A DNA stretch of 64,000 nt from Kingdonia uniflora (Eukaryota > Streptophyta > Magnoliopsida > Ranunculales > Circaeasteraceae). How positions within the stretch are numbered: the stretch's first letter is position 1; each line of letters opens with the position of its first letter. The notes below the pieces were generated by a model that was given only the letters and a program-made list of their open reading frames with translations, was not told the DNA's origin and searched no databases. Shown piece after piece: positions 9,675-64,000 of this stretch. The stretch lies in contig JACGCM010001311.1 of NCBI GenBank assembly GCA_014058105.1, positions 682,001 to 746,000 on the forward strand, given 5' to 3'. The translations under genes and the position numbers were made by a program.

Positions 9675-10370
9675 TACCACGACTTCAATAAGCATTAAAC
9701 CTTGAAGTAGATAAACTCATAGCTGCAAGTTTTATCAGAGAAGTGAAATACCCTGACTGGATATCAAATATTGTGGCAGTACCAAAGAAGAATGGCATGA
9801 TCAGAATCTACGTCGACTTCACAGACCTCAACAACCACACACCGAAGGACAGTTTCCCTCTCCAGACTATTTCAGTACTTCTCGACGCTACTATTGGACA
9901 TGAGCGCTTATCAATGATGGACGCGGCTTCGGGTTTCAATCAAGTACCCCTCCTCCTTGAAGATTAACTTAAAACTTCTTTTATTACTGAGCAAGGCCTT
10001 TATTGTTTCAATGTTATATACCCTTCGGCCTTAAAAATGTGAGAGCTACTTACCAACGCCTTATCACAACCATGTTCAAACCTTTGCTTGGCAAGTCGGT
10101 CGAAGTCTACATCGACAACATGTTATGCCAAAGCCTTCAGAAACACACCCATATACAAGACCTAATAAAAATCTTCTCAGTACTTCGCACATATAACATG
10201 AAACTCAACCCAGACAAATACCAATTTGGTGTTTCATCCGATAAATTTTTAGGCCACCATATCAGTAAGTGTGGTATCGAGATTGACCCCACCCATATTC
10301 ATGCCCTTATCGACATGTTACGCCCCGAACCAAAAAAGACGTCCAAAAAGTGGCTGGCAAGATAGCAGCC
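9675..10370 (+). pseudogene. Element B reverse transcriptase
   Basis: The frame carries FIREVKYPDWISNIVAVPKK, DFTDLN, MMDAASGFNQ and, near 10107, EVYIDN. The catalytic YIDD has become YIDN, so the active site is lost. A TAA at 9964-9966 and a frame change near 10020 also break it. LGHHISKCGIEIDP marks the end of the palm/thumb region. Confidence 0.9.
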
Positions 10371-10469
10371 CTCAACCGTTTCATTTCAAAATCCTCATAC
10401 AGATGTGTTTGGCTCTTTTCCCTCCTACGCGATCAAGGGGTCCTCAAATCAAAAAAGAAAAACAACCCC

Positions 10470-10935
10470 GAGATCAACTGGACACCCGAGTGTGAACAAG
10501 CCTTCCTTGAACTCAAAACTTATCTTGGCCATCCACCCATTATCAACACCCCTATCAAAGGCGAAACACTCTCTCTATACCTCGCTGCCACATATACTTT
10601 TATCAGTTCAGTACTTATTCGACTCGATTTCAACATCAAAAAATTTGTATACTTCATCAGTAAAACTCTAACCTCCGCAGAAACTCGGTATTCGAAGCTT
10701 GAGCGCCTGCTCCTTATACTTGTTTATTGAACCTGCAAACTTAAACCATATTTCCAAGCCTACTCCATCCGTGTTATCACAAGTTATCACCTTCAAGAAG
10801 TACTCAGTAAAAAAGAAAAATCCAAACGAGTGTAACAGTGGTCTGTGTACCTTGGTGAATACGACATTACCTTCAAGAAGCAAATATCTAGAAAGGTCAA
10901 GCAGTAGCAGAATTTCTAGCTGACTTCCCGATCAA
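10470..10935 (+). pseudogene. Element B first RNase H and connection
   Basis: TPECEQAFLELKTYL opens the domain. YFISKTLTSAETRYSKLE and the GQAVAEFLADFP block (about 10890-10930, shared with element A) close it. Stops occur around 10728 and 10832. Confidence 0.82.
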
Positions 10936-11004
10936 AAATATCGATTAGGAAGAACACGAAGATGACTTATCAGAAGACCAACCCAAAACAATGGACCCCT
11001 GGGA

Positions 11005-11695
11005 CCTTCACACTGGCTGGCGTTTATTCACAGATGGATCCGCATGACCTAATGGCTCAGGAATTAGTATAGTCTTGGTAACACCCACTAATGACCGAGT
11101 ATATAAAGCTGTCAAACTTACCTTTAAATGTTCCAATAGCGAAGCTGAGTACGAAGCCTTAATCCATGGCCTCGACCTCGCCCTCGCCCTCAATCTCGGT
11201 ATTCCCAAAATTATTGTTTTCACAAATTTCCAACGTGTTCAGGGGCATTACACAGGAGAACACCAAGCTAACAGTTGCATGGCTTACTACGCTCTCTTGG
11301 TGCGGCAGCGCATGAACCGATTTCCTGTAAAATCCACAATCACTCATTACCCAAGAGAAGAAAATATACATGCAGATTCCCTCGCCTATATAGCTACTAT
11401 GCTCGGACAATTAGAATCTCGGACCCTCCATATCAAAGTACTTGAACGCCCAAGTATTGACCAGATGGAAATCAATGCCATTAATACTGGGGGCGAGAGT
11501 TTCGATCCCTATGATTGGCGAAGACCATTCCACCATTACCTCAACAATTCTACCCACCCAGATGATCCCAAAGCCAAATGGTCGCTGTTAGAAATTACCA
11601 CATATACAATATTCACAAAAATGAATTACATCGCAAATCCTCGAATGGCATCCTCCTTCGATGCATATCCCAAGCCGAAGCCACTGCAGTTTTAG
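11005..11695 (+). pseudogene. Element B second (archaeal-type) RNase H
   Basis: GWRLFTDGSA (about 11020-11047) is followed by TGA, then NGSGISIVLVTP, EAEYEALIHGLDLALAL and ENIHADSLAYIATM. A second RNase H after the normal one is the mark of the Tat lineage. The D in TDGS, E in EAEYEAL and D in HADSLA are kept. Confidence 0.85.
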
Positions 11696-12780
11696 CCGAA
11701 CTTCATGAAGGAACCTGCGGTACTCACAGTGTTGGTCGTTCTATGGCCCTTCGAGCTGTCACTCAAGGATTATTTTAGCGTAATATGAATACACAAGCTG
11801 AAGAGTATGCAAAACACTGTGACAAATGTCAACCTCGTGCTCATGACATCCATTTCCCTTCTCAAGACCACCATTTCAGTCAAGTCTACTGGCCATTCAA
11901 AAGATGGGAAATCAATCTCATCCTTCCCTTCCCAAAAGCCTCGCGCAGTAGAGAAAACATCCTTGTTGCAAACGATTACTTCACCAAATGGGTCAAAGTT
12001 GTACCTTTATGCCTAACTAGGGAAGAAGAAGTTATCAAATTTTTATGGGAAAACATCATCACACGCTTCGGCTACCCCCACATGATTCGATGCGACAATG
12101 GCCCCCAATTCGTAGGCAACAAAGTCATAAACTTTCTCAAAAAACATAACATCATTCTCTCACCCTCAACCCCTTATTATCCCCAAGGCAATGGTCAAGT
12201 CGAAGCGATCAGCAAAGCCATTGTCGACGGTCTTAAGAAAAGAGTTGACGCAAAGAAAGGATGATGGGTTCGAGAGTTACAACACGTCATCTGGGCCTAT
12301 TGAGCAACCCCAAGAAAATTTACAGGATGCACCCCCTTCTTCCTAGCATATGGTACCGAAGTTGTGCTCCCCACTCAATTCGAAGTACCCACACGAGATC
12401 CTAACTTCCCAGACGAAGAGAATGAGTTTGAGCTCGCTTGTAACATGTTATGGATCAATGAAACCAGAGACTGAGCTATCGCCAACCTTGGCCGCTATCA
12501 CACATCACTTTAGAAATCCTATAGCAAGAGAGTTCGACCACGGAGTTTAAACATCGGAGATCTAGTACTTTGACGTGTCAATCAATCCTCGAAACCTCAG
12601 AATGCCGACAAGTTAGCTGAATCTTGGAAAGGACCTTATGTCGTGTACGATAAAACTGACAAGGGTTCTTACTATCCTATGACCAAGACGAAGAGCCTTT
12701 ACCAAACCCAAGGAACACAATACAGTTGGTCTCCTATAACAAGCCTTATCCTCAACCATGTACAACTGATGTAATCGAGA
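11696..12780 (+). pseudogene. Element B integrase
   Basis: The zinc-binding part is LHEGTCGTHSVGR ... CDKCQ (about 11701-11830). In the core the second D (CDNGPQF near 12090) and the E (GNGQVEAI near 12190) remain, but the first D is N (EINLILPFP near 11910). Stops lie at 11776-11778, 12262-12264 and near 12300. The C-terminal part (NIGDLVL, AESWKGPYVV) parallels the element A fragment at 19542. Confidence 0.88.
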
Positions 12781-13902: not shown

Positions 13903-16030
13903 TCATATCGGCGCGGTTATGCCTTTTTCCTCCACAGATCCCCCAGCGCCAACACCCTCAGCAGCTTCAGTCAAACCTTCGACAACCAAACCATCAACGG
14001 TTCCACTACTGGCCACCCCAATAACAGAAGTCTCCACACCACCTCCAGTACCTCCAGCTGCCTCATCCACAACATCTGCTTCCTTTATCTGCAAATCACC
14101 GCCATCAACAAGTTCTGGAGAAACAGGGTAAGGCTCCAACGTATCGGGATCATACCCCTTCTCGTCTATAAACTTCTTCAACCTAACATTCACCTTATTT
14201 TTGCCATCATACTGCCGCTGGAAATTCACCCTCTGTTTTGCTATCTCCCTCTCTTTTACCGCAAGCTTTGCAGACCACTCCCATTCCTGCCTTGACCACT
14301 GAAGCTCGAGCCTCTCATCATACGATTCAGTAAGCACCTTCAGATCTTGCTTCAACTTCTTGACTTTGGACAACAATGAAGCCTCAGTTCCCCAAGAAAT
14401 ATTTAGACTTTCCACTGCCTGTCTCAATTTCTCCTTTGCCGACTTTATCGCCTTGTTAAACGATCGCACCCAAGCCTTTGTCTGCTAGAATATTCAAGCA
14501 GTCAGTACACCTTGAAACTCAAAGAGCTTAAACAAAATCTCAGACTCTCACAAAATCAATTCATAAATAGTTACCTAAAACATGTGCCTCTTTATTTCCT
14601 TCGCAACCTCATTTGGGTGATCCTCGCAGAGCTCGACCATCGAAGCTTGTTTGGCAACTGCTTGCTCATGTCGTTCAGCCTCTGTCATCTCTTCATCCTC
14701 ATCTACTGCATCATTCTCCCCCAGTGCCCGATGCCTTTTGCGCTATCCAACCTTTGATTGCTAAACCTTTGGGGCCTCGGGAGCTACATGGCCCTTCCCC
14801 TTCTCAGTTTGAGTTGGGACCTGCCTCGACCTCAACCTCAAAGCATCGCCAGCCACTTCGGGCAAGAGTGTTGCTTACTTCGACCCCCTCCACATTCGCG
14901 GCACATACTAAAAATTCCTTGGAAACTCTTCCCCTCCCATTTCTTTTTGACCCTTCGAAACACCTTCGCATCTCTTTCTCTTAGATGGTTTTGGCGTAAC
15001 GGGTACGCTTCGAAGCAGGGAACCCATTTTTTTTCTCCTTTGCCTCTTGATTCTAAGACTGTCAAATACAGAATTTACCCAATCCTCACTAACTTCAAGC
15101 AAAGTATCAATATAATTCATCGGATTGCTCCAAGATGAATTCTTCGGAACTGCAGAACAATCGAGAATATAATGATCACCTATTCAAGACGTACATCAAC
15201 AATAACCCTTCGACAATGAACATACTTTGATTATACGCCCTATGATGCAACTTATAAGGGTCATCCTCCTCAACATTCTCGAAGTTACCCCTTACTATCA
15301 ATAAATCTTTATTCCACCCTCGACCCGTCGAACAGAGATCAAAGAACCATGGCTTCTCTGGGTGACATTGGATATGATAGGTACCTGGGTTCTGGCTTGT
15401 CTTCTTCGAGTAGAAGGTAATAACATTAAACAACTTAATCAAACCCTGACCCTCACCAGTCAATTTTGCATTCATCCCCTCTATAACCCTCATCATCTCA
15501 TAAAAATTTATGTTCATTTGTACCGGGGCCACCTCCCAGAAATTCAGTACTTCTTTCACCAGCCTTTGAAGAGGAAGTTGCATTCCCAATCGAATCTGGC
15601 CTCCATAAGTCATTATCCCTTCCCCAGGGTCCGATTTGAAGGTTAATCCTACCCCCGCCACACTTAGATAAACACCCACCTTTGACAGTTCTAGCTTGGC
15701 AGCAAACCGATCTAACCTAATCTTACCCCTAGCAGAAACGGCACCTTCAACACTATTCGACTCAATCAAATCCCCACTATCATCACCCCCACCCCTCTCC
15801 CCCCATACTGTCTCTTCCTCCTTACTATCCTCAGTCACTATCATCCTACGACGCCTCGTAACCGAAACCTCCTCTGCCGACAGAACCATGGATAAAGGGG
15901 CCTCGATTATCACATCTAAAACTTCTAAGTCGCTACCCTCATCTATTGAGGGTTAAGAAAAAATACTAGCTTTGAATGCTTCGATTTCTATGTCTATCAG
16001 TCTCCGTCTCGAAGCTTGACAGTTATGCAT
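13903..16030 (-). pseudogene. Element B antisense main gene (Transposase_28-like domain plus coiled coil)
   Basis: A likely start ATG is at 16030. It lies in the second exon after an intron (16311-16037, with GT and AG borders). The frame is open apart from a TAA near 15957. The domain at about 15650-15176 (LGMQLPLQRLVKEVLNFW, then VQMNINFYEMMRVIEGMN) resembles Pfam Transposase_28, 'putative gypsy type transposon'. A basic stretch follows at about 15120-14908 (IKRQRRKKMG, KPSKRKRC), probably a nuclear signal. The last part (14469-13903) is a coiled coil with an acidic and Pro/Ala-rich tail. It is transcribed toward gag-pol. Such antisense genes are known in Tat elements such as Grande; the function is unknown. 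Confidence 0.72.
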
Positions 16031-22300: not shown

Positions 22301-25263
22301 CCTGATTCTATAAATTAGCTCTCGCAGAGACCGCATCCAACCCTTTTACAATACCTTGTGGAGAGCTGCCTTCAACTTCCATCTCCTCTTCTGCATCGGC
22401 CTCTTCGACATACCACCCCTTTATAATCGCTTCAATATCGGACACAGAGTATCCAACATCTTGGAGCATTTGGCCAAGGTTATCGCGAGTAACTGAAACT
22501 TCCTCAACATTCTTCTTTGCCTCCCCTGTGAGTTTGAGCATCGTAACCCGGTATGAATCCTTCGCAGAAATCGAACACCCTTTTTCAAGAGCTAAATTAG
22601 CCACAATTTGAGCAACCCTCTTCTCGAACTTAGCAACTATCTTCTTAAGCTCCGTCTTCTAATCCTCAAACCCGAGATAGATTCCTTTCAACAAACGGGA
22701 CATCTACAACACAAAGTAACATTTCAGTTCGAAGATTACACAAAATTCAAATAAAACGTAGCGTTTAACTTACCCTACAAAGTTCCAACTTCACAGACAT
22801 GCCCAGCTTCTCAGAAACTTCTCGAGCTGCTACCCTCGTCTTATTCTCTAGAACCAACAACTCGTCCTTCACAGTAAGACTACTCCCAGCCTCCTTCACC
22901 CCACTCACAGGAACAGGAGCATCCACCTTCCTCCTTTTTGAACTCATGGCAACCTCTCCACTCTCAGTGGTTGCCGAGTTCGAACCATTAACCTTCACAT
23001 TCTTCCTTTATGGGTGCCTTTGAATTAACTTGCTTGATGTAGCCCCTACGAGATTTGCCTTCAATGAGATCGGTACAACCTTTTTTAATGTTGGACGTCC
23101 TTCAACGTTCGATACTGCCCTCCTTCCATCTTCAACGGTTGTACCAGATCCTGTCATTTTTCTCTTCGCTTGAGACTTTTAAACCTTTTTCGACCTACTG
23201 TTAGCCCTTTTAAATCGGCAAATTTCGAACTCCCCCAAAACAATTTCGAGCTCTAATCCTTCTCGAGATACAATATCGATTAATGATTCCTTTCTCGCAA
23301 CTTGAGATCAAGGATCTGCAAAAAGTATAACACATTGTTACATATAGACATAACGCTAACACATTATTACTTTTCTTTAGATTTTTATATATCAAATCCA
23401 TAGGTTCCTCGCCCACCCTTTGAAGACAATCACCCTTCATCCATATCAAGTTATCATTCCATACTCGTCCTGCCGAGTTCAGATCAAAAAATTGAGGCTG
23501 AGACGAACTAGAAGAGAAGTACGCGCCCCTAGTAGCCGTATAGTATTTCATAGTATAATATTGCAAAACATCTACATAGGTTATTCTCCTCTCCACCCTG
23601 TTGAAAGCCCACCTTCTATTCAGGTTATCACAAACATTTATCACTTCCCACATATTCCCATTCAGTTGGGGAGGGCAGGCCTCAATAACATTCAAAATAT
23701 CTTTAACAAGATTGCTTAAAGGCATCATCAGTCCAAAATCTAGCTAAGAAGGATAACACAAAAATCCCTGGTCCAGATCACTTTGGACAATCTCATTAAA
23801 ATACTCAAAAGATATAGTCTCATCCACTCCCCTCTCAGATTTCTTATGCTCTAAATCAGGCAATAAGAAAAAGTATTCGTCACCGCTTTTAATTGTGCAC
23901 CCCCTAAATGACCTACTGGCATGTTCTATCACCTTACCCCATGCACCACCAAAATTACTTTTAATTGTATAAAACTCCTTGAATACATCTGACTCTGCAA
24001 GATATGGTAAGAAGTTACCAGGGAAATCTACAACAGTACAACATATTTTAGCTCGAAAACAAATACAAAATTCAAAGAATTACAAGCTATCAACTTACCA
24101 TCCTAGTCAGCTCCAACTGTGCAGAGGTAGTCAGCTCCTCCGTACCTCTTCAAGCTACCAACCTCAATCGCTTCTCCACTACCAGTAGATCATCCTCATC
24201 AATAGGTCAGCTCAACCTGACCTTCACCCTTCCGACAGCAGTAGGCAGGCCAGCCCTCCTCTTTTCTATATTCCCCTTGTCCTCACTACTCACCGGGGTA
24301 CCGGAGGCCGAGCTGCCCTTCACAGCTTTCTTCTTGGTGTACTTTAGAGTTAACTTGCTCGACGCTGTCCTAACATAAACATCCCCTAACAATATTTCTG
24401 AGGCCCTCAACAATACCGGACATTCCTTCCCGTCCACTCCTCTTTTCTTGCTCGTTCCCACCCCTGTCATTTGTCTCTTGGCCTGAGACTTTTGAACTCT
24501 CTCTGATCTACTATTAGATTTTTTGCTTTTGCTGATACCGAGCTCTTTCAGAACTATCTCGAGCTCAACACCTTCACGAGCTACAGTATCCAGCAGCGAT
24601 TCTTTTCTTGCCATTTTAGATCGAGGACATGTAACACAATATAAACAATTGGTTAAACCATAGAACAAGCCTACAACTACCACAGATCAATTTTATATTA
24701 CTTACTTTTCTTCAAAGTTCTATATACAAGTTTTATGGGTTCCTCGTCCATTATCTGAAGACAATCACCTTTCACCCATATAACATTATCGTTCCAAACT
24801 CGACCTGCTGAATTCAGATCGAAGAAAAGAGGTCGAGACAAACTAGAACAGAAATACGCACCTCCAGTTGCAGCATAATATTTCACAGCGTAGTACTGCA
24901 AAACATCCTCAGGAGTTATTCTCCTATCTACCTCATTCTCCACCCATAATCTATTCAGAGTCTCACAGACATTAATCACCTCCCACATGTTTCCATTGAA
25001 TTGGGCAGGACAAGCCTCTATGGTGTTCAGTATACCTTTAACAAGATTGCTAAGAGGCAATCTTAGCCCGTGCTCCAACTGGGATAGATAATACAAAAAT
25101 CCCTGGTTCAGGTCTCTCTAGACATTCCCATCAAAATACTCTAAGTGTATCAATTCATCTACCTTCCTCCTCATTTTCTTCTGTTCTAAGTCAGGCAACA
25201 AAAAGAAATACTCTTCCCCACTTTTTATAATGCATCATCTAAATGACCTCCCAGAGTATTCTA

Positions 25264-56877: not shown

Positions 56878-56880
56878 TTA

Positions 56881-56911
56881 GAGCATCTCCTAAAGTGCTT
56901 CACTACCTTGG
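56881..56911 (+). repeat. Left terminal inverted repeat of the PIF element
   Basis: 31 bases, matching 63966-63996 inverted with two changes. A second CTCACTACCTTGG follows at 56953-56965. Confidence 0.92.
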
Positions 56912-57013
56912 ATTTATAGGTGCCATCTAGGATTTTCGTGATCCAACAGTGCCTCACTACCTTGGATTTGAGTCTCAAAAAGCAAGGCTGAGCCTTGCTT
57001 TTTTACGTCGTGA

Positions 57014-57080
57014 TTGGGCGCCCAAGTGTTGGGCGCCTATGTTATTTTTTTTAATTAGGCGCCCAACTCTTAGACGCCTG
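57014..57080. repeat. GGCGCC palindrome cluster 1 (upstream of ORF1)
   Basis: TTGGGCGCCCAA at 57014-57025, then GGGCGCCTA, a T tract and TAGGCGCCCAA, then GACGCCTG. Shared units recur at clusters 2 and 3. Confidence 0.85.
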
Positions 57081-57372
57081 TTTCACTGACTAAATCCATG
57101 GGAACTTTCAAACCAAGTCATTTCCCTCTCTTCACCACTTTTCTAAAAACTATTTCCCTCCCTTCACCACTTAAACAAAAACCATACCCAATTGCACCAC
57201 AACTCTCCTTCACTCTATTGGGATCAAATAAGGTTTGAAATTGTTGAAGGTTGATCTCTTAAGATAAGTTCTTGTTTAATTTTATCATATCCCTTTTAAT
57301 TTTCTAAATTTTTATATTATAGGGTTTTAAGTTTTTCATGATTATTAATTCTATATATATGTAAATTATTAG

Positions 57373-58850
57373 ATGAGTTCCTCGAATACAACACAAGATA
57401 AAGATTTCACTACCGAGAGTAATTTGAATCAACCCAACAATTTTGGACAACAATAACAAATCCTACTTAATTGTTTGCAATTCACTCATTCCCCTCAACC
57501 TCAATCATCTCAATCCCAACCTTCTCAATATTTTAACTCGCCCAACAATTAGGTACAACCCTCTCATCCATTCATAGCACCCAATAGTTGGGGACAACCC
57601 TCTCAATTCGCCATTCCCACTCAATTCTAATATCCTTCTTTATTCACTAATCCCTCATAATCTCAATCATCTCAATCACATGGTACTCAATCGGTTGACT
57701 TATCTCAATCCGAAGACGCGAGGGTTGTTGATGGACAAAAAAACAAAGACAAACGTTGCTCGACAACAAAAAATACCAATAGAGGGGGGGGTCTCAGTTG
57801 TTGAAATGGGCGGGTATTCAAAACAAAAATCTTGCAAAAACTTGAGTTTATGTCTCGGAGGATAGAATCAAAAACAACAACCAGCAACTTGATGTGTTTT
57901 AGGACTCGGCTTTGGATGCATTTCATGATTTTTGTCAACAAGTGAACGGGTTGAACGTTTAGTTTCATCTTTAAAAAATTATTGGTCGAATATGAATCGT
58001 GCATGCAAGGTTTATGAGACTTGTTTGAAAAATGTTATGCATGGTCCAATAAGCGGTACGCAACAAGGAAATTTGGTAAGTAATTCAAAATTTGTCATTA
58101 CTAATAAATTATAAACTATTTTTACCAAAATTATACCTTTTTTTATTGTTTTAATCTATTTTATAGGACGATGCCGCCAAAACGATTTATGAAGCACGTG
58201 GCAAAAACAAATGGTTGTATAAAGAAGCTTATGAAGTTTTAAGTTGTCATCAATGTTGGAAAATATTGCAAGACCAATACCCGAACACTTTAGCTCGCAA
58301 TGTGCGAATGAAACAAACATCAAATTCTAGCCCTGAAATGTTTATTCCGGCAACACCCGACACACCCGTTAGCTCCAACACTGACTCTCCAGTACTTGTC
58401 ACGGATGATGAGACAGAACGTTTCGGCGGTATCAAAAGTGCTAAACTAAAGGAAAAGAATAGAAAAAAGACAAAATCTTCTATTGAACGCCAAAATGTAC
58501 TTATTAGTTGTCTTGACCGAATGGAGAAAAATAAAGAAGAGTATGTTGTTGAGAGAGATAAGAAGAAAGAAGAGTACATATCTGAGAGAGATAAGAAGAA
58601 AGAAGAAAGAGATTCACGTATAATAGAGTTAAGAGAAAAGAAGACAAAGGTCGTGGTGAATTTATAAGCTCATTTTCAAGCCCAAAATGATCAAAAGGTG
58701 ATGGCGATGGACATGTCTACTTTGGACGACACTCAAAGGATTTATTGAGAGGCACAACGCAATGCGGTTATGGCGAGAATGTTTAAATATAATAATAACT
58801 CCTAAGAGGCTCTAGCTGAAGAATCTTATTTTAAAAGTTTGGTAGTATTT
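57373..58850 (+). pseudogene. PIF/Harbinger ORF1 (Myb/trihelix-like accessory protein)
   Basis: The ATG at 57373 starts a Q/N/S-rich leader with stops (TAA near 57454). The DNA-binding-like part is visible at about 57900-58075 (AFHDFCQQVNG, and in another frame VERLVSSLKNYWSNMNRACK, CLKNVMHG). An intron at 58076-58166 has GT/AG borders. The open part 58167-58667 follows (LYKEAYEVLSCHQCWKIL, then a long charged coiled coil with KKEE repeats). In PIF/Harbinger elements this protein helps the transposase reach DNA and the nucleus. A frameshift and several stops make it a pseudogene. Confidence 0.78.
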
Positions 58851-59157
58851 TAGTGATTCTTGTTTAAGAAGTTTGGTTGTACATTGTTTAAAAACCTTGT
58901 TTAAGATGTTTGGTATATTTTGTTTAAAAACTTTGTTTAAGAAGTTTCTCTGGATTTAAGAAATTTGGTAATTTAAAATAATATAATCTTTTTGAGAAAG
59001 TTTAGCTTTCTAATTATTTTTTTATTTCAATTTATATTGAAATTGAAATAAATTTCTTAAATAAATTTCATAAAATGTTTAGTTGAAATTACATAGAATT
59101 GAAATAAAGTTGCGTTTACATAAAAATTACAAATAATTGAAAATACTAGTTGTTTCT

Positions 59158-60488
59158 CTAATGCTTCCACAAATGCTTAATGAGATCATTTTGAAGTGCC
59201 ATATACTTATCCGAACTTGTCATTTTATCGTACTTCGCAATGTATCTTTGTAAAGTGACTTCTTCCCGATTCAAGTCAATTGGTTGAGGGTCTAGGACAA
59301 AATGCTCGGTCAATAAGCTTACTTCGTACCTATTGCGTTCTTCCTCGACGATCATGTTATACATAATTATACATGTTTGCATTATTTTACCGAGGTTTTT
59401 GGTTGACCAACTTTTTGCCGGACCTTTCACAATTGCAAATCGAGATTGAAGCGCATCGAAAGCTCGTTCTACGTCTTTTCGATAGGACTCTTGTTGCTTG
59501 GCAAAATATTTCTCTACATTACCTCGGGGAAATTGTAAGGTTTGAACAAGCGTTGCCCATTTCAGATATATACCATCCGCCAAGTAGTATCCAATGTCGT
59601 ATGGTTTTCTATCGACTTCAAAGTTGCAAGATGGAGAACGACCAAGACAAAGATCTCGAAAGAGATGTGATTGATCAAGAATATTTACGTCGTTGTTGGA
59701 ACCAAGCCTTCCAAAAAAATAATGCCATATCCATAAATCATGAGATACCACCACTTCTAAAATAATTGTTGGTGTTTTCTTATTCCCCGTGTATTAACTC
59801 GCCCAAGCCGTGGGGCAATTTTTCCACTCATAATGCATGCAATCCAAACTACCTAGCATGCTGGGAAATCTACGCTTCTCGACAGCGTACAACAACCGTT
59901 TTATATCATATGGAGTTGGCGATATCAAATAGCACCGAATTGCGCAATCATTGCATTGCAAAATCTCGTAAGGGACCCAATTGTTGTGCTCTCTGCAACC
60001 CAATCATATTTATCACAGTTGTCCACCGACACTCCTAATGCAAACATACAGAATACCGTCGTAAGTTTTTGATGAGGCGATAAACCCAAAATATTTGCAC
60101 AATTTTGTTTCTGAGCAAAAAACTTTTCATAAGCAACCACCGCATTTAAAATACGATCGAAAAGTCTTCGGCTCATACGGAATTTTTAACGAAAATTTTC
60201 GCTTCCGTAAACATTTTCATCACGGAAATAGTCGTGCATAAGTAACTTATTATAGAAAACACGTGAGCGATTTATGGTTTTATGCCCGATAACCGAACCG
60301 ACACGAGTTCTTAAAGATTTTGCCTCTGCTAATTCTTCAATTTTAGCTTGATTTCGTAATATCTCTAGCTTAATCTCATCAATAACGTCGTCATCACTAT
60401 AATCGGTTGAAGATTGCTCGATATCCTCTTCCTCTTCCTCCTTGGATGAAGAATCGATGAAAACATCAAGAACCGCCTCGAAATTCAT
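59158..60488 (-). pseudogene. PIF/Harbinger DDE transposase
   Basis: The frame starts at ATG 60488 with an acidic N-terminus, then a helical part (NFR, TAA, KFRMSRRLFDRIL), the helix-turn-helix-like region (LSPHQKLTTVFCMFALG), LGSLDCMHYEWKNCPTAW with the first catalytic D, GSNNDVNILD with the second, and YRKDVERAFDALQSRFAIV with the E. GYYLADGIYLKWATLVQT between them is typical of Harbinger transposases. Defects: TAA near 60187, a frameshift near 59940, TAA near 59796. Both stops fall where a CAA is expected. Confidence 0.92.
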
Positions 60489-60670
60489 CAGATATGAAAC
60501 ACAACACTAAAATTTAACTAAGAGAATATCATAATTGATTTTAGATAATATGAGTTTTTGGATTTGGTTTATGTAGTCTCTTCACAAAATATAGTCGTTC
60601 TGAACCAAATATAGCCTTTACCAACAAAATATAGCCGTTTGAAACAAATATAACTGTTGGAAAAAAAAAT

Positions 60671-60765
60671 TACTCAGTGAAATAGGCGCTTAAGACAGAG
60701 GCGCCTGATTGAAGAAAAAAAAAACAATCAGGCGCCTATGTCTTAGGCGTCTGTTTTGCTGAGTA
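60671..60765. repeat. GGCGCC cluster 2: 41-nt inverted repeat upstream of the transposase
   Basis: Arms 60671-60711 and 60725-60765 are inverted copies with a few mismatches, around a 13-base A-rich loop. Each arm holds an AGGCGCCT and an AGGCGC/AGACGCC unit. It lies about 180-275 bases before the transposase ATG. Confidence 0.9.
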
Positions 60766-61044
60766 CATTTTTTCTTCTTCCTGAAAGCGTGTAAATTACA
60801 ATTAAAACTATGAGGAATATAACACAAGATGATACTTGTAAATTGCATAACACAATATGCTACTTCTAAATTGTAAATTGTAAATTGCATAAGAAGATGC
60901 TTTCTGTAAATTACGTAACACAAGATAACAAAATCAAAAGATTTCATTAAAAACTATAAACAACTAAAAAGATCCATCAACACAAGATCCCCATACAAAA
61001 CCCATACAACACTAAACAAAAGAAGATCCCCGCGTACGTCTTGA

Positions 61045-63257
61045 TCATCGGGGAGGAGCGGCCCCACCTTTAGATGTCCTTTCCCCGCGCGAACCCCTCC
61101 CCCGTGAAGTCCCCATTTGAGAAGTTCCCGCTTCACTTTCGTCATCTTCCCAATCGACTACAATCCCTTTAAACATACAAAATAGGAATATCAACATTAA
61201 TTAAAACTACAAATATTAATAAAATGGAAAATATATCATAAGATGTTTAAACAACTTACTTGTCCATCTAAATAGTCATTCAATTGGGAAAGACGGTCCT
61301 CTGCACGTCTCAAGTCCGCCGTCAAATGTATAATATGACTCTCGTCATGAAGGTGTCGAGCCTCCAAATCTAATGTCCTATTAAGTGTAAGCTTCCGCAT
61401 ACCCTTAGTCATAGCGAAAAAATCATATCCTGTTGGTACGTCTATAGTAGAGGTCAATAGAATAGAGGGAATGGTATGCCATGTGGTCCCATGTGGCGAC
61501 CCTAACTCCATAATCTATCCAGGGTAATCACCAAACCGTGGGGGAGGGATTTGTGTCTCCTGAGTAGAAAAATCTGTAGTAGAAAACTCAACATGTGGAA
61601 AGGTAACTCTGCCTGTCAAAGCACAAATGCATGGGATGTCAATGTTTCCACACCTTGTAATATCCGACATGAGTGCACCATGTGAAACATGCCTCCAATA
61701 GGCATCATAGTCGACATGGTGACCCACAATATAATGTTGTGCTTTGATCCAGCCCACTGCTCAAAGGGAACGAACCACATCGATAGTCGGGAAGCAATGA
61801 AGTTTCTTTGGTCGGTCGTACGACACTGTATGATGCTCTAGTTGAGCCCAACAACGGTCCTCAAGATACTACTCGTATCCACCAAATGGCCATTGCAGGA
61901 GTACTCTTTTACAACTAATATTACCGACGATGATTACCTCCCACTTTAGTGCATTTTTCATATTTCTAAAGGGGTCCCATTGCATGTTATTGATTGTACG
62001 CAAATCCAGTTGTTGCTTCATCAGTGCTAGATGATGTTTCGCCTTATTTCTCATAAATTTTTGTCTTTTAGTTTGCCAGGCTGACATCCTTGGCCAAAAA
62101 TCATCCAACCTATTATCTATCAAGATATGATGGCCTATATGATAATACTCATAGCAATGATACTGCAAAAGATAAAAAAATAAAATAAAGTAAGTATCCA
62201 AATAATCTTAAATTCCAAATAAATAAATAACTAGAACTATTACTTAAAAATATTCTACCTCGATCAATTGGAAAATGCCGCCGATGTATTTCACCTCCTG
62301 TTTCGATGCTTGGTCAAGACAGTAGTAGAAATGCCCTAATATAGCGGAGCAGAAGTCTATCGTATAAGCCTTGTTTTCTAATACGGCAATAGGACCTAAC
62401 AACTCTAGTCGAGCCCAGCTCTTCGAGTTCCCAAATATGATACCTCCAAAGTACAATAACATAAATGCTCTAAAGATTGTATTAGCATTAACGGGATCTT
62501 TGATGTTTACTCTGGTATGTTCAAGGTAAGTTTGGAGGTGAGCAAAACTAATACATCCATTTTTATAATTTGTAGGCATCATATCGGGAAAAATTGTTAC
62601 GGCATTACCGTATTTCGTGTATTACTCATCAAATTCCATCGGCTCTCCTGTCCCGATATCTATCCCTGTAAGCACAGCAAAATCTCTAGGAGTTATCCCT
62701 AGCTCTCCACAAGGTAGGTGAAATGCGTGAGTGGTTGGCCACCAACGCTCAATCATCGCCAAAATTACTTGGTTGTCTCCATTCCCAATTTTATAATCAA
62801 ATACACTCATCAAATTGGTAACCTTTAATATCTGCTTCAAGTGAGGTACCTCTAAAAGTATTAAGTACACTTCACGGAGCTTGACTAACACCGATCTATA
62901 TTTAAATCCAACTCGAGCCTGTAAAGGCATTAATAAACACAAATATAAATACTTTGAAATAAGTATAAAACCAATAATTTACTAATTTGCGTTATTTCAA
63001 CTTACCAATGTAGTAGTAACTGATGGGGACAAATGACCCTTCCCATCCGGTTGTGTGAGTTGCCGAAAGTCATGTGCTTCATAATTTTGCGAAAGAGGTG
63101 GAGGAGGTTCAGTGGAGACATTGACGACTTCTTCAAAATTAATTTTCTGCCTTTTGCCCGATAAAAAACGCATTTGAGAAACATGACTTTCGCTATAATC
63201 GGACTCAGATCCCTCATCATCGCCGGTTCCGTAATATTCTTCATCCTCTAACGACAT
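61045..63257 (-). pseudogene. Plant mobile domain (PMD, MAIN-like) gene carried by the PIF element
   Basis: Exons: 63257-63006, 62918-62259, 62162-61260 and probably 61166-61045. Introns have GT/AG borders, and the first three exons keep one frame (605 codons). Exon 1 is acidic with KRQK. Exon 2 has IERWWPTTHAFHLPCGELGI and FAVLTGIDI, the signature of the PMD family (Pfam PF10536). FRAFMLLYFGGIIFG and IGGIFQLIE follow. Exon 3 has DRCWAQLEHH and ends in a coiled coil. The last exon would give an acidic then GR-rich tail, but its phase does not join cleanly. Stops occur after EFDE (62640-62638), GGYE (about 61872), VVRSL (about 61759) and DYPG (about 61514). PMD proteins such as MAIN/MAIL1 act in the nucleus in silencing and genome stability. 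Confidence 0.82.
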
Positions 63258-63788
63258 CGTTAAATTATGCATTAATAAACACATAGTAATTTATATAAAG
63301 ACCACCACAATACTCAGGGCAATAGGAAGTATTAAAATCAATCAGAGGGTGTCAAATTCTTATGATTACAACATAATGTCAAATTCTTAGCAAGCACCAA
63401 GGCGCGTTCGTCGTTTTCAATATTATTTTCCATACAATACCCTAATTTTAACACATTGGAGTAAAACTTTGGGATGCAAGAGGAGTAAAAATTGCTGATT
63501 TCAACACTATGAAAGCCAAATTCAATCAATACCCTAAATTCTACCAAGAAATCACAATATTGGGAAAATTTTACAATACCCTAAAATACATCAAGAAATC
63601 ACAAAATCAAGTCAATATCCTAAATTAACAAGTAACAAATTGTTGGATTTGATACCTTACTTCAATTACACCAAGGGAATTCAAAATAAATGTGTGTAGA
63701 GAGAGAGAGTGTGAGAGAGATACCTGAAGAGAAGTGTAAAATTTGACAAGAGATGACTAACATAAATGTTTTGAAGCTTCAGTCCATC

Positions 63789-63895
63789 AGGCGCCTAAGA
63801 CTTAGGCGCCTAATTTTTTTTTAAAATAATTTGGGCGCCCAAGTGTTAGGCGCTTGTATTTTAAAACAAACAGACGCCCAAATATTATGCGTCTA
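63789..63895. repeat. GGCGCC palindrome cluster 3 (upstream of the PMD gene)
   Basis: GGCGCCTAAGACTTAGGCGCC, split by its own centre, then a T tract, TTGGGCGCCCAAGTGTTAGG and ACGCCCAA. The TTGGGCGCCCAAGTGTT unit is a direct copy of that in cluster 1. Confidence 0.88.
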
Positions 63896-63934
63896 TTTAA
63901 AATCTAAGTTAGGTACTGTTGGAAGAAATAGAGC

Positions 63935-63996
63935 CTCACTACCTTGGATTTTGTTTTTTTTTCAACCAAGGTAGTGAGGTACTTTAGGAGATGCTC
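63935..63996. repeat. Right end of the PIF element with subterminal hairpin
   Basis: CTCACTACCTTGG at 63935-63947 faces its inverted copy at 63966-63978, inside the terminal repeat, across a T-rich loop. Confidence 0.85.
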
Positions 63997-64000
63997 TTAT

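Follow-up and report, generated by a model that had tools for sequence, protein, structure and literature searches.

Introduction

PIF/Harbinger elements encode two proteins each (PMC8616336). The plant mobile domain (PMD) has been described in transposons of other kinds: PMD-A genes occur in Ty3/gypsy elements, and PMD genes were captured twice by Mutator-like elements (MULEs) (Ikeda et al. 2017, PMC5418596). In Arabidopsis, the PMD proteins MAIN and MAIL1 act with PP7L in the silencing of transposons (PMC8616336, PMC7156037), and a counter-silencing role has been suggested for transposon-borne PMDs by the authors of PMC5418596 and PMC8616336. Here, we describe a PIF/Harbinger transposon that carries a PMD gene besides its open reading frame 1 (ORF1) and transposase gene, at positions 56881..63996 of a 64,000-nucleotide stretch of contig JACGCM010001311.1 (the whole of this stretch is hereafter called the window). 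A preliminary description of this DNA had associated PMD genes with Ty3/gypsy and Mutator-like elements, as PMC5418596 reports, and had found a PMD gene unfamiliar as a part of a PIF element; indeed, no such gene is described in a PIF/Harbinger element in the open-access literature that we searched, including PMC8616336 and PMC4583175.

The element very probably stands for a PIF/Harbinger family with three genes, belonging to Kingdonia uniflora or a very near relative, in which the PMD gene is cargo placed between the transposase and the right end. On sequence grounds, we are highly confident that the PMD gene is a standing cargo of this family. We consider it standing cargo, and not the result of a chance insertion, because 21 of 96 PMD gene models are linked to the transposase in the same order, the divergence of the two genes is correlated, and the linked models fall into two of the three deep PMD clades.

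With the PIF/Harbinger elements whose transposase belongs to Plant_tran (PF04827), the Kingdonia element shares the TTA target-site duplication, the inverted ends, the DDE transposase and ORF1, while it differs from the two-protein elements of PMC8616336 by the additional spliced PMD gene between the transposase and the right end. As in the case of the MULE PMD-C genes (PMC5418596), its PMD is borne by a DNA transposon and has a suggested anti-silencing use. However, PMD-C is fused to the MULE transposase and is found in several grasses and Amborella, whereas the PMD of Kingdonia, a member of the Ranunculales, has a gene of its own within a PIF element. The PMD-A of Ty3/gypsy elements (PMC5418596) is likewise transposon-borne, but those elements are long terminal repeat retrotransposons, and neither reverse transcriptase nor integrase was found in the ten pieces of the Kingdonia element that were scanned (of 49 frames listed); its self-comparison shows no long direct repeat either. 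Pack-TYPE elements (PMC8903248) also hold gene sequence between inverted ends; in contrast to these non-autonomous carriers of coding-gene fragments, the Kingdonia element has its own transposase and ORF1, both broken in the present copy.

Structure of the element

The left terminal inverted repeat of 31 base pairs (bp) (56881..56911, plus strand) and the right one (63966..63996, minus strand) differ at two positions, and TTA target-site duplications, read from the sequence, adjoin them at 56878..56880 and 63997..63999. When up to three mismatches are allowed, the 31-bp ends match the window at these two places only (expectation of 0.00 from 100 shuffles). The sequence CACTACCTTGGATTT occurs in exact copies at 56901, 56955 and 63937. 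A target duplication of 3 bp with the sequence TTA or TWA defines PIF/Harbinger in both length and sequence, and this locus displays the TTA duplication on both sides, the terminal inverted repeats and a DDE transposase of the superfamily. A BLAST comparison of the element with the window (E ≤ 1e-3) returned zero matches beyond the element itself.

From left to right, the element contains ORF1 (plus strand), the transposase gene (minus strand) and the spliced PMD gene (minus strand). ORF1 (57373..58805) is interrupted by several stops. Its joined 254-residue C-terminal part matches PF14303 (E 1e-10; score 43.2 bits, cut-off 27.7), while the longest single piece by itself scores 26.7 bits, below that cut-off. 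The second gene of PIF/Harbinger elements has a DNA-binding domain of the SANT/Myb/trihelix kind; the scan, which covered the C-terminal 254 residues of this stop-broken ORF1, matched PF14303 and no Myb-like family. The transposase gene (59158..60488) has two in-frame stops and one frameshift, and its conceptual protein matches PF04827 Plant_tran (E 2.2e-89) and PF13359 DDE_Tnp_4 (E 4.6e-14). The putative D, D and E motif stretches, assigned by eye, begin at residues 218, 306 and 343 of this protein. A protein search with it gave 2557 matches, of which the 120 listed are 44–52% identical to the query and, where named, mostly from plants; many of the best relatives among those listed carry the name HARBI1.

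The PMD gene (61045..63257) consists of four exons, at about 63257-63006, 62918-62259, 62162-61260 and 61170-61045, with joins deduced from the sequence. The spliced conceptual protein matches PF10536 (E 2.7e-30, 106.2 bits against a cut-off of 34.9) and contains four in-frame stops. Three of these hit alignment columns in which one residue strongly prevails among the filled rows, and the fourth hits a column with two common residues. Because the stops sit mostly in columns with one prevailing residue, the decay probably followed the insertion of this copy. Since ORF1, the transposase gene and the PMD gene are all broken, the copy is dead. The inverted ends, the TTA duplications and the three genes named in the preliminary description were thus recovered, and the element is whole in its structure; its genes, which that description had included in a whole transposon, are decayed.

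The Kingdonia PMD family and its linkage to the transposase

We searched a database of 5.8 billion proteins clustered at 90%, a level that caps the nearest-neighbour identities given below. With the PMD protein of the window as the query, 55 matches were obtained, each named Kingdonia uniflora. A profile built from 15 PMD rows gave 95 matches, again all from Kingdonia, and the union of both searches comprises 96 gene models. No PMD relative from outside Kingdonia was obtained at E ≤ 1e-3 (protein) or E ≤ 1 (profile), within the reach allowed by the word filter of the search. The PMD of the window sits inside this family, as judged by its alignment and branch length: its nearest row is 85% identical, as compared to a median nearest-neighbour identity of 86% (94 Kingdonia rows, at least 120 shared columns), and its end branch is 0.13, as compared to a median of 0.12. 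On this basis, the source species is very probably K. uniflora, a genome assembly of which is named as PRJNA587615 in PMC9866071. The model P0005 matches PF10536 with 119.3 bits and spans 508 PMD columns free of gaps. Its predicted structure has a mean predicted local distance difference test score of 43.6, too poor for a fold search, and no solved structure matched the PMD profile at E ≤ 0.1.

All 96 models were aligned to the element. In 21 of them, 13 of which are among the first 55, the PMD is followed by the transposase, with the order and strand of the window in 21 of 21; the reverse order occurs in 0 of the 96. Two of the linked models (P0036 and P0037) extend further, into antisense ORF1. 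The transposase pieces are 56–92% identical to that of the window, and the best E value of each model lies between 6e-5 and 1e-36; P0021, P0028 and P0185 have the weakest matches. Most linked models stop within the N-terminal part of the transposase, while P0022, P0200 and P0206 reach later parts. The last exon join of the PMD gene (near 61260/61170) and its place before the transposase are kept in linked models of both group I and group III of the PMD tree described below. P0209 carries PF28509 besides the PMD in its Pfam row in the database, and the PMD alone in our own Pfam scan; PF28509 is annotated on 119 of the 120 listed transposase matches.

In the remaining 56,880 bases of the window, outside the element, the 96 proteins have matches at no more than two places; both resemble retrotransposon sequence and were hit by the tail of P0049. 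The proteins contain 24 unmatched pieces of at least 20 residues, which show no mutual resemblance at E 1e-3. Sixteen begin at residue 1, among which residues 1-26 of P0049 appear to be a divergent PMD start. The other eight include some downstream pieces, in P0045 and P0215 (which have no transposase piece) and in P0039, P0049 and P0053 (after the transposase piece). Downstream of the PMD only PIF sequence recurs, and upstream nothing does, as is predicted if the right end of the element lies just upstream of the PMD gene.

In four Kingdonia models (P0010, P0046, P0048 and P0054, the last named Aurora kinase), other domains lie upstream and are joined to PMD exons. We take the domains in this set to be ARM repeats, a PfkB-type kinase and a proteasomal ATPase. 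Either the annotation joined them by accident, or exons of the element are spliced into transcripts of the host.

Parallel divergence of the PMD and the transposase

The PMD tree contains 93 rows, four of the 97 having been dropped for fewer than 180 filled columns (including the linked P0212 and P0216). Its rows form group I (29 rows, 7 linked), group II (22 rows, 0 linked) and group III (42 rows including the window copy, 12 linked). In a bootstrapped tree of the 75 rows with at least 250 columns, in which the bootstrap is unsettled, groups I, II and III have support of 100/99, 100/100 and 86/96, and the linked rows number 4 of 19, 0 of 21 and 9 of 35, respectively. Linkage changes 15 times on the tree, as compared to a shuffle mean of 17.6, and 30 of 500 shuffles were as low. 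Linkage is thus spread over the tree and not confined to a single clade, as would be seen were linkage the rule and its detection hit-or-miss.

Among the linked models, pairs with a greater PMD distance tend to have a greater transposase distance as well (141 pairs; Mantel r of 0.43, with 0 of 500 permutations as high), and the two genes diverge in parallel (Spearman 0.65 with P 0.002, n = 20 of 21). P0200, for which blastp gave no match, was omitted from the distance comparison, and the overextended transposase alignment of P0049 adds noise to it. Moreover, the transposase pieces of clade I are farther from that of the window than the rest, which include the tree-unplaced P0212 and P0216 (P 0.0007). 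Since the distances correlate and linked models occur in groups I and III, the PMD and the transposase most likely passed together through the divergence of these groups. The earlier suggestion of a PMD gene acquired by the element family, which then travelled with it, is supported by the 21 linked models and by this parallel divergence.

Evidence against a standing cargo and alternative explanations

Several observations weigh against the standing cargo. The PMD portion is small in some linked models: at E ≤ 0.01, Pfam finds none in P0036, and the matches of P0037 and P0047 are below the cut-off. A joined model shows two pieces to be neighbours on the same strand and does not place them between shared ends, and some linked models could be segmental duplicates. 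Only one model of 96 (P0005) spans at least 400 PMD columns without an inner gap of more than 5, and therefore most PMD copies are likely decayed, although the alignment method creates some gaps on its own. None of the 22 group II rows is linked, as compared to 19 of 92 overall (P 0.003, in a test picked after the tree was seen). Group II includes the gap-free P0005 and some short branches, and four of its models (P0006, P0008, P0025 and P0032) have a common sequence right after the PMD stop; the group may be a younger carrier that lacks the transposase, or its models may end at a proper stop codon. Finally, 0 of the 120 listed transposase matches (of 2557) is named Kingdonia, many being nameless, so that the counts above cover only models with a PMD. 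The transposases are probably masked in the Kingdonia annotation.

Could the linkage have arisen by chance? That a separate PMD-bearing element inserted into one PIF copy is very improbable and largely refuted, since 21 of the 96 other models likewise have this transposase joined to the PMD, with an identical order. Inverted copies of a GGCGCC-rich module stand on both sides of the PMD gene (60719-60762 and 63779-63822, 82%), which would suit a nested element; however, a further copy is found upstream of ORF1, and the middle one is palindromic by itself. No second pair of ends resembling the terminal repeat was found inside the element, and, among the 25 longest of 53 inverted pairs, only copies of this module surround the PMD gene. 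The preliminary description had named, as signs of chance nesting, target duplications around the PMD gene itself and other copies of the family without it; the first of these two points is addressed by the lack of an inner terminal-repeat-like pair and, for those 25, by the survey of inverted pairs. It is just as hard to credit that the linked models are annotation accidents, in which PMD genes of another repeat lie near Harbinger copies by chance. Gene predictors do fuse neighbours; of the 24 unmatched pieces, 16 begin at residue 1, and several models with such pieces bear host-gene-like domains in their Pfam rows. However, the transposase joins downstream and on the same strand in 21 of 21 cases, the unmatched pieces are mutually dissimilar, and the PMD and the transposase diverge in parallel.

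The main rival to a counter-silencing function is a passive passenger: the PMD gene might have been captured a single time and then copied along while giving the element no advantage, as happens in DNA transposons that capture genes, and its decay would reflect disuse. The four stops in the PMD frame of the window and the single long model among the 96 are in keeping with such disuse. On the other hand, the transposase and ORF1 of the window copy are broken as well, so that decay after insertion covers both these and the PMD gene; the place of the gene and its last exon join are retained in linked models of groups I and III; and P0005 still spans its 508 columns. We therefore consider passive copying unlikely, though far less so than the two chance scenarios above.

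The GGCGCC-rich palindromic module

The module occupies 57016..57093 upstream of ORF1, 60663..60773 upstream of the transposase (between the transposase and the PMD gene), and 63779..63895 upstream of the PMD gene. Within the window, matches of at least 18 to a 23-mer of the module are confined to these three stretches. The stretches upstream of ORF1 and the transposase match in the same orientation over about 75 bp with a score of 53 (0 of 200 shuffles as high) and in reverse with 36 (1 of 200), whereas those upstream of the transposase and the PMD gene score 50 in reverse (0 of 200) and 37 in the same orientation (6 of 200). For the stretches upstream of ORF1 and the PMD gene, it is the terminal repeat that gives the best match in the same orientation. 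An argument for promoters from the orientation of the module was dropped, as the preferred orientation differs between the gene pairs and the module is palindromic. Therefore, the claim is limited to its presence upstream of all three genes. The module may represent promoter parts that the genes share or, alternatively, binding sites in a subterminal position. The middle copy might descend from the right flank of an ancestor with two genes, the PMD gene having been gained between it and the right end.

Proposed mechanism and significance

Acquisition and transposition: In the PIF superfamily, ORF1 and the transposase act on the element ends, and insertion occurs at TTA. We propose that the PMD gene entered an ancestral element of two genes ahead of the divergence of PMD clades I and III, after which copies were dispersed by cut-and-paste. 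The Kingdonia element would follow the ordinary PIF route, with the PMD cargo moved by the element's own transposase and ORF1.

Function of the cargo: The weakest step is that the PMD protein would aid the element, most likely by interfering with MAIN/MAIL1-type silencing. Such an anti-silencing role, which the preliminary description had also guessed at, is plausible and the leading candidate, but we hold it with more doubt than confidence. More speculative still, and improbable as a whole, is a broader scenario: PIF/Harbinger would be the third transposon class to gain a PMD, independently of gypsy and MULE elements; the gene would have been kept while the family diversified into several clades because its protein counters or redirects MAIN/MAIL1-PP7L silencing; the three genes would form one unit co-regulated through the palindromic module; and clade II may have turned to carriers without a transposase, which would use it in trans.

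With the Kingdonia element, PIF/Harbinger joins the gypsy and MULE elements as a superfamily that carries PMD genes. Two PMD proteins of Arabidopsis silence transposons, yet transposons repeatedly carry PMD genes. Kingdonia, a rare alpine plant, offers a natural case of a transposon bearing a gene related to host defence, and its multicopy cargo within one genome provides a system in which selection, age and any effect on silencing can be measured.

Other features of the window

Elsewhere in the window, a Copia-type reverse transcriptase fragment lies at 444-1049 (PF07727 RVT_2, E 8e-43), and pieces of a Ty3/gypsy-like polyprotein lie at 10287-12264, in the order RNase H-like, RVT_3 and integrase core. 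The minus-strand frames 23210-23743 and 24698-25117 are closely related by eye, and 15176-15952 is similar to them. The two of these three frames that were scanned, at 15.2 and 23.2 kilobases (kb), gave no Pfam match. The frames near 15.2, 23.2 and 24.7 kb may belong, as additional genes, to a retroelement in this region.

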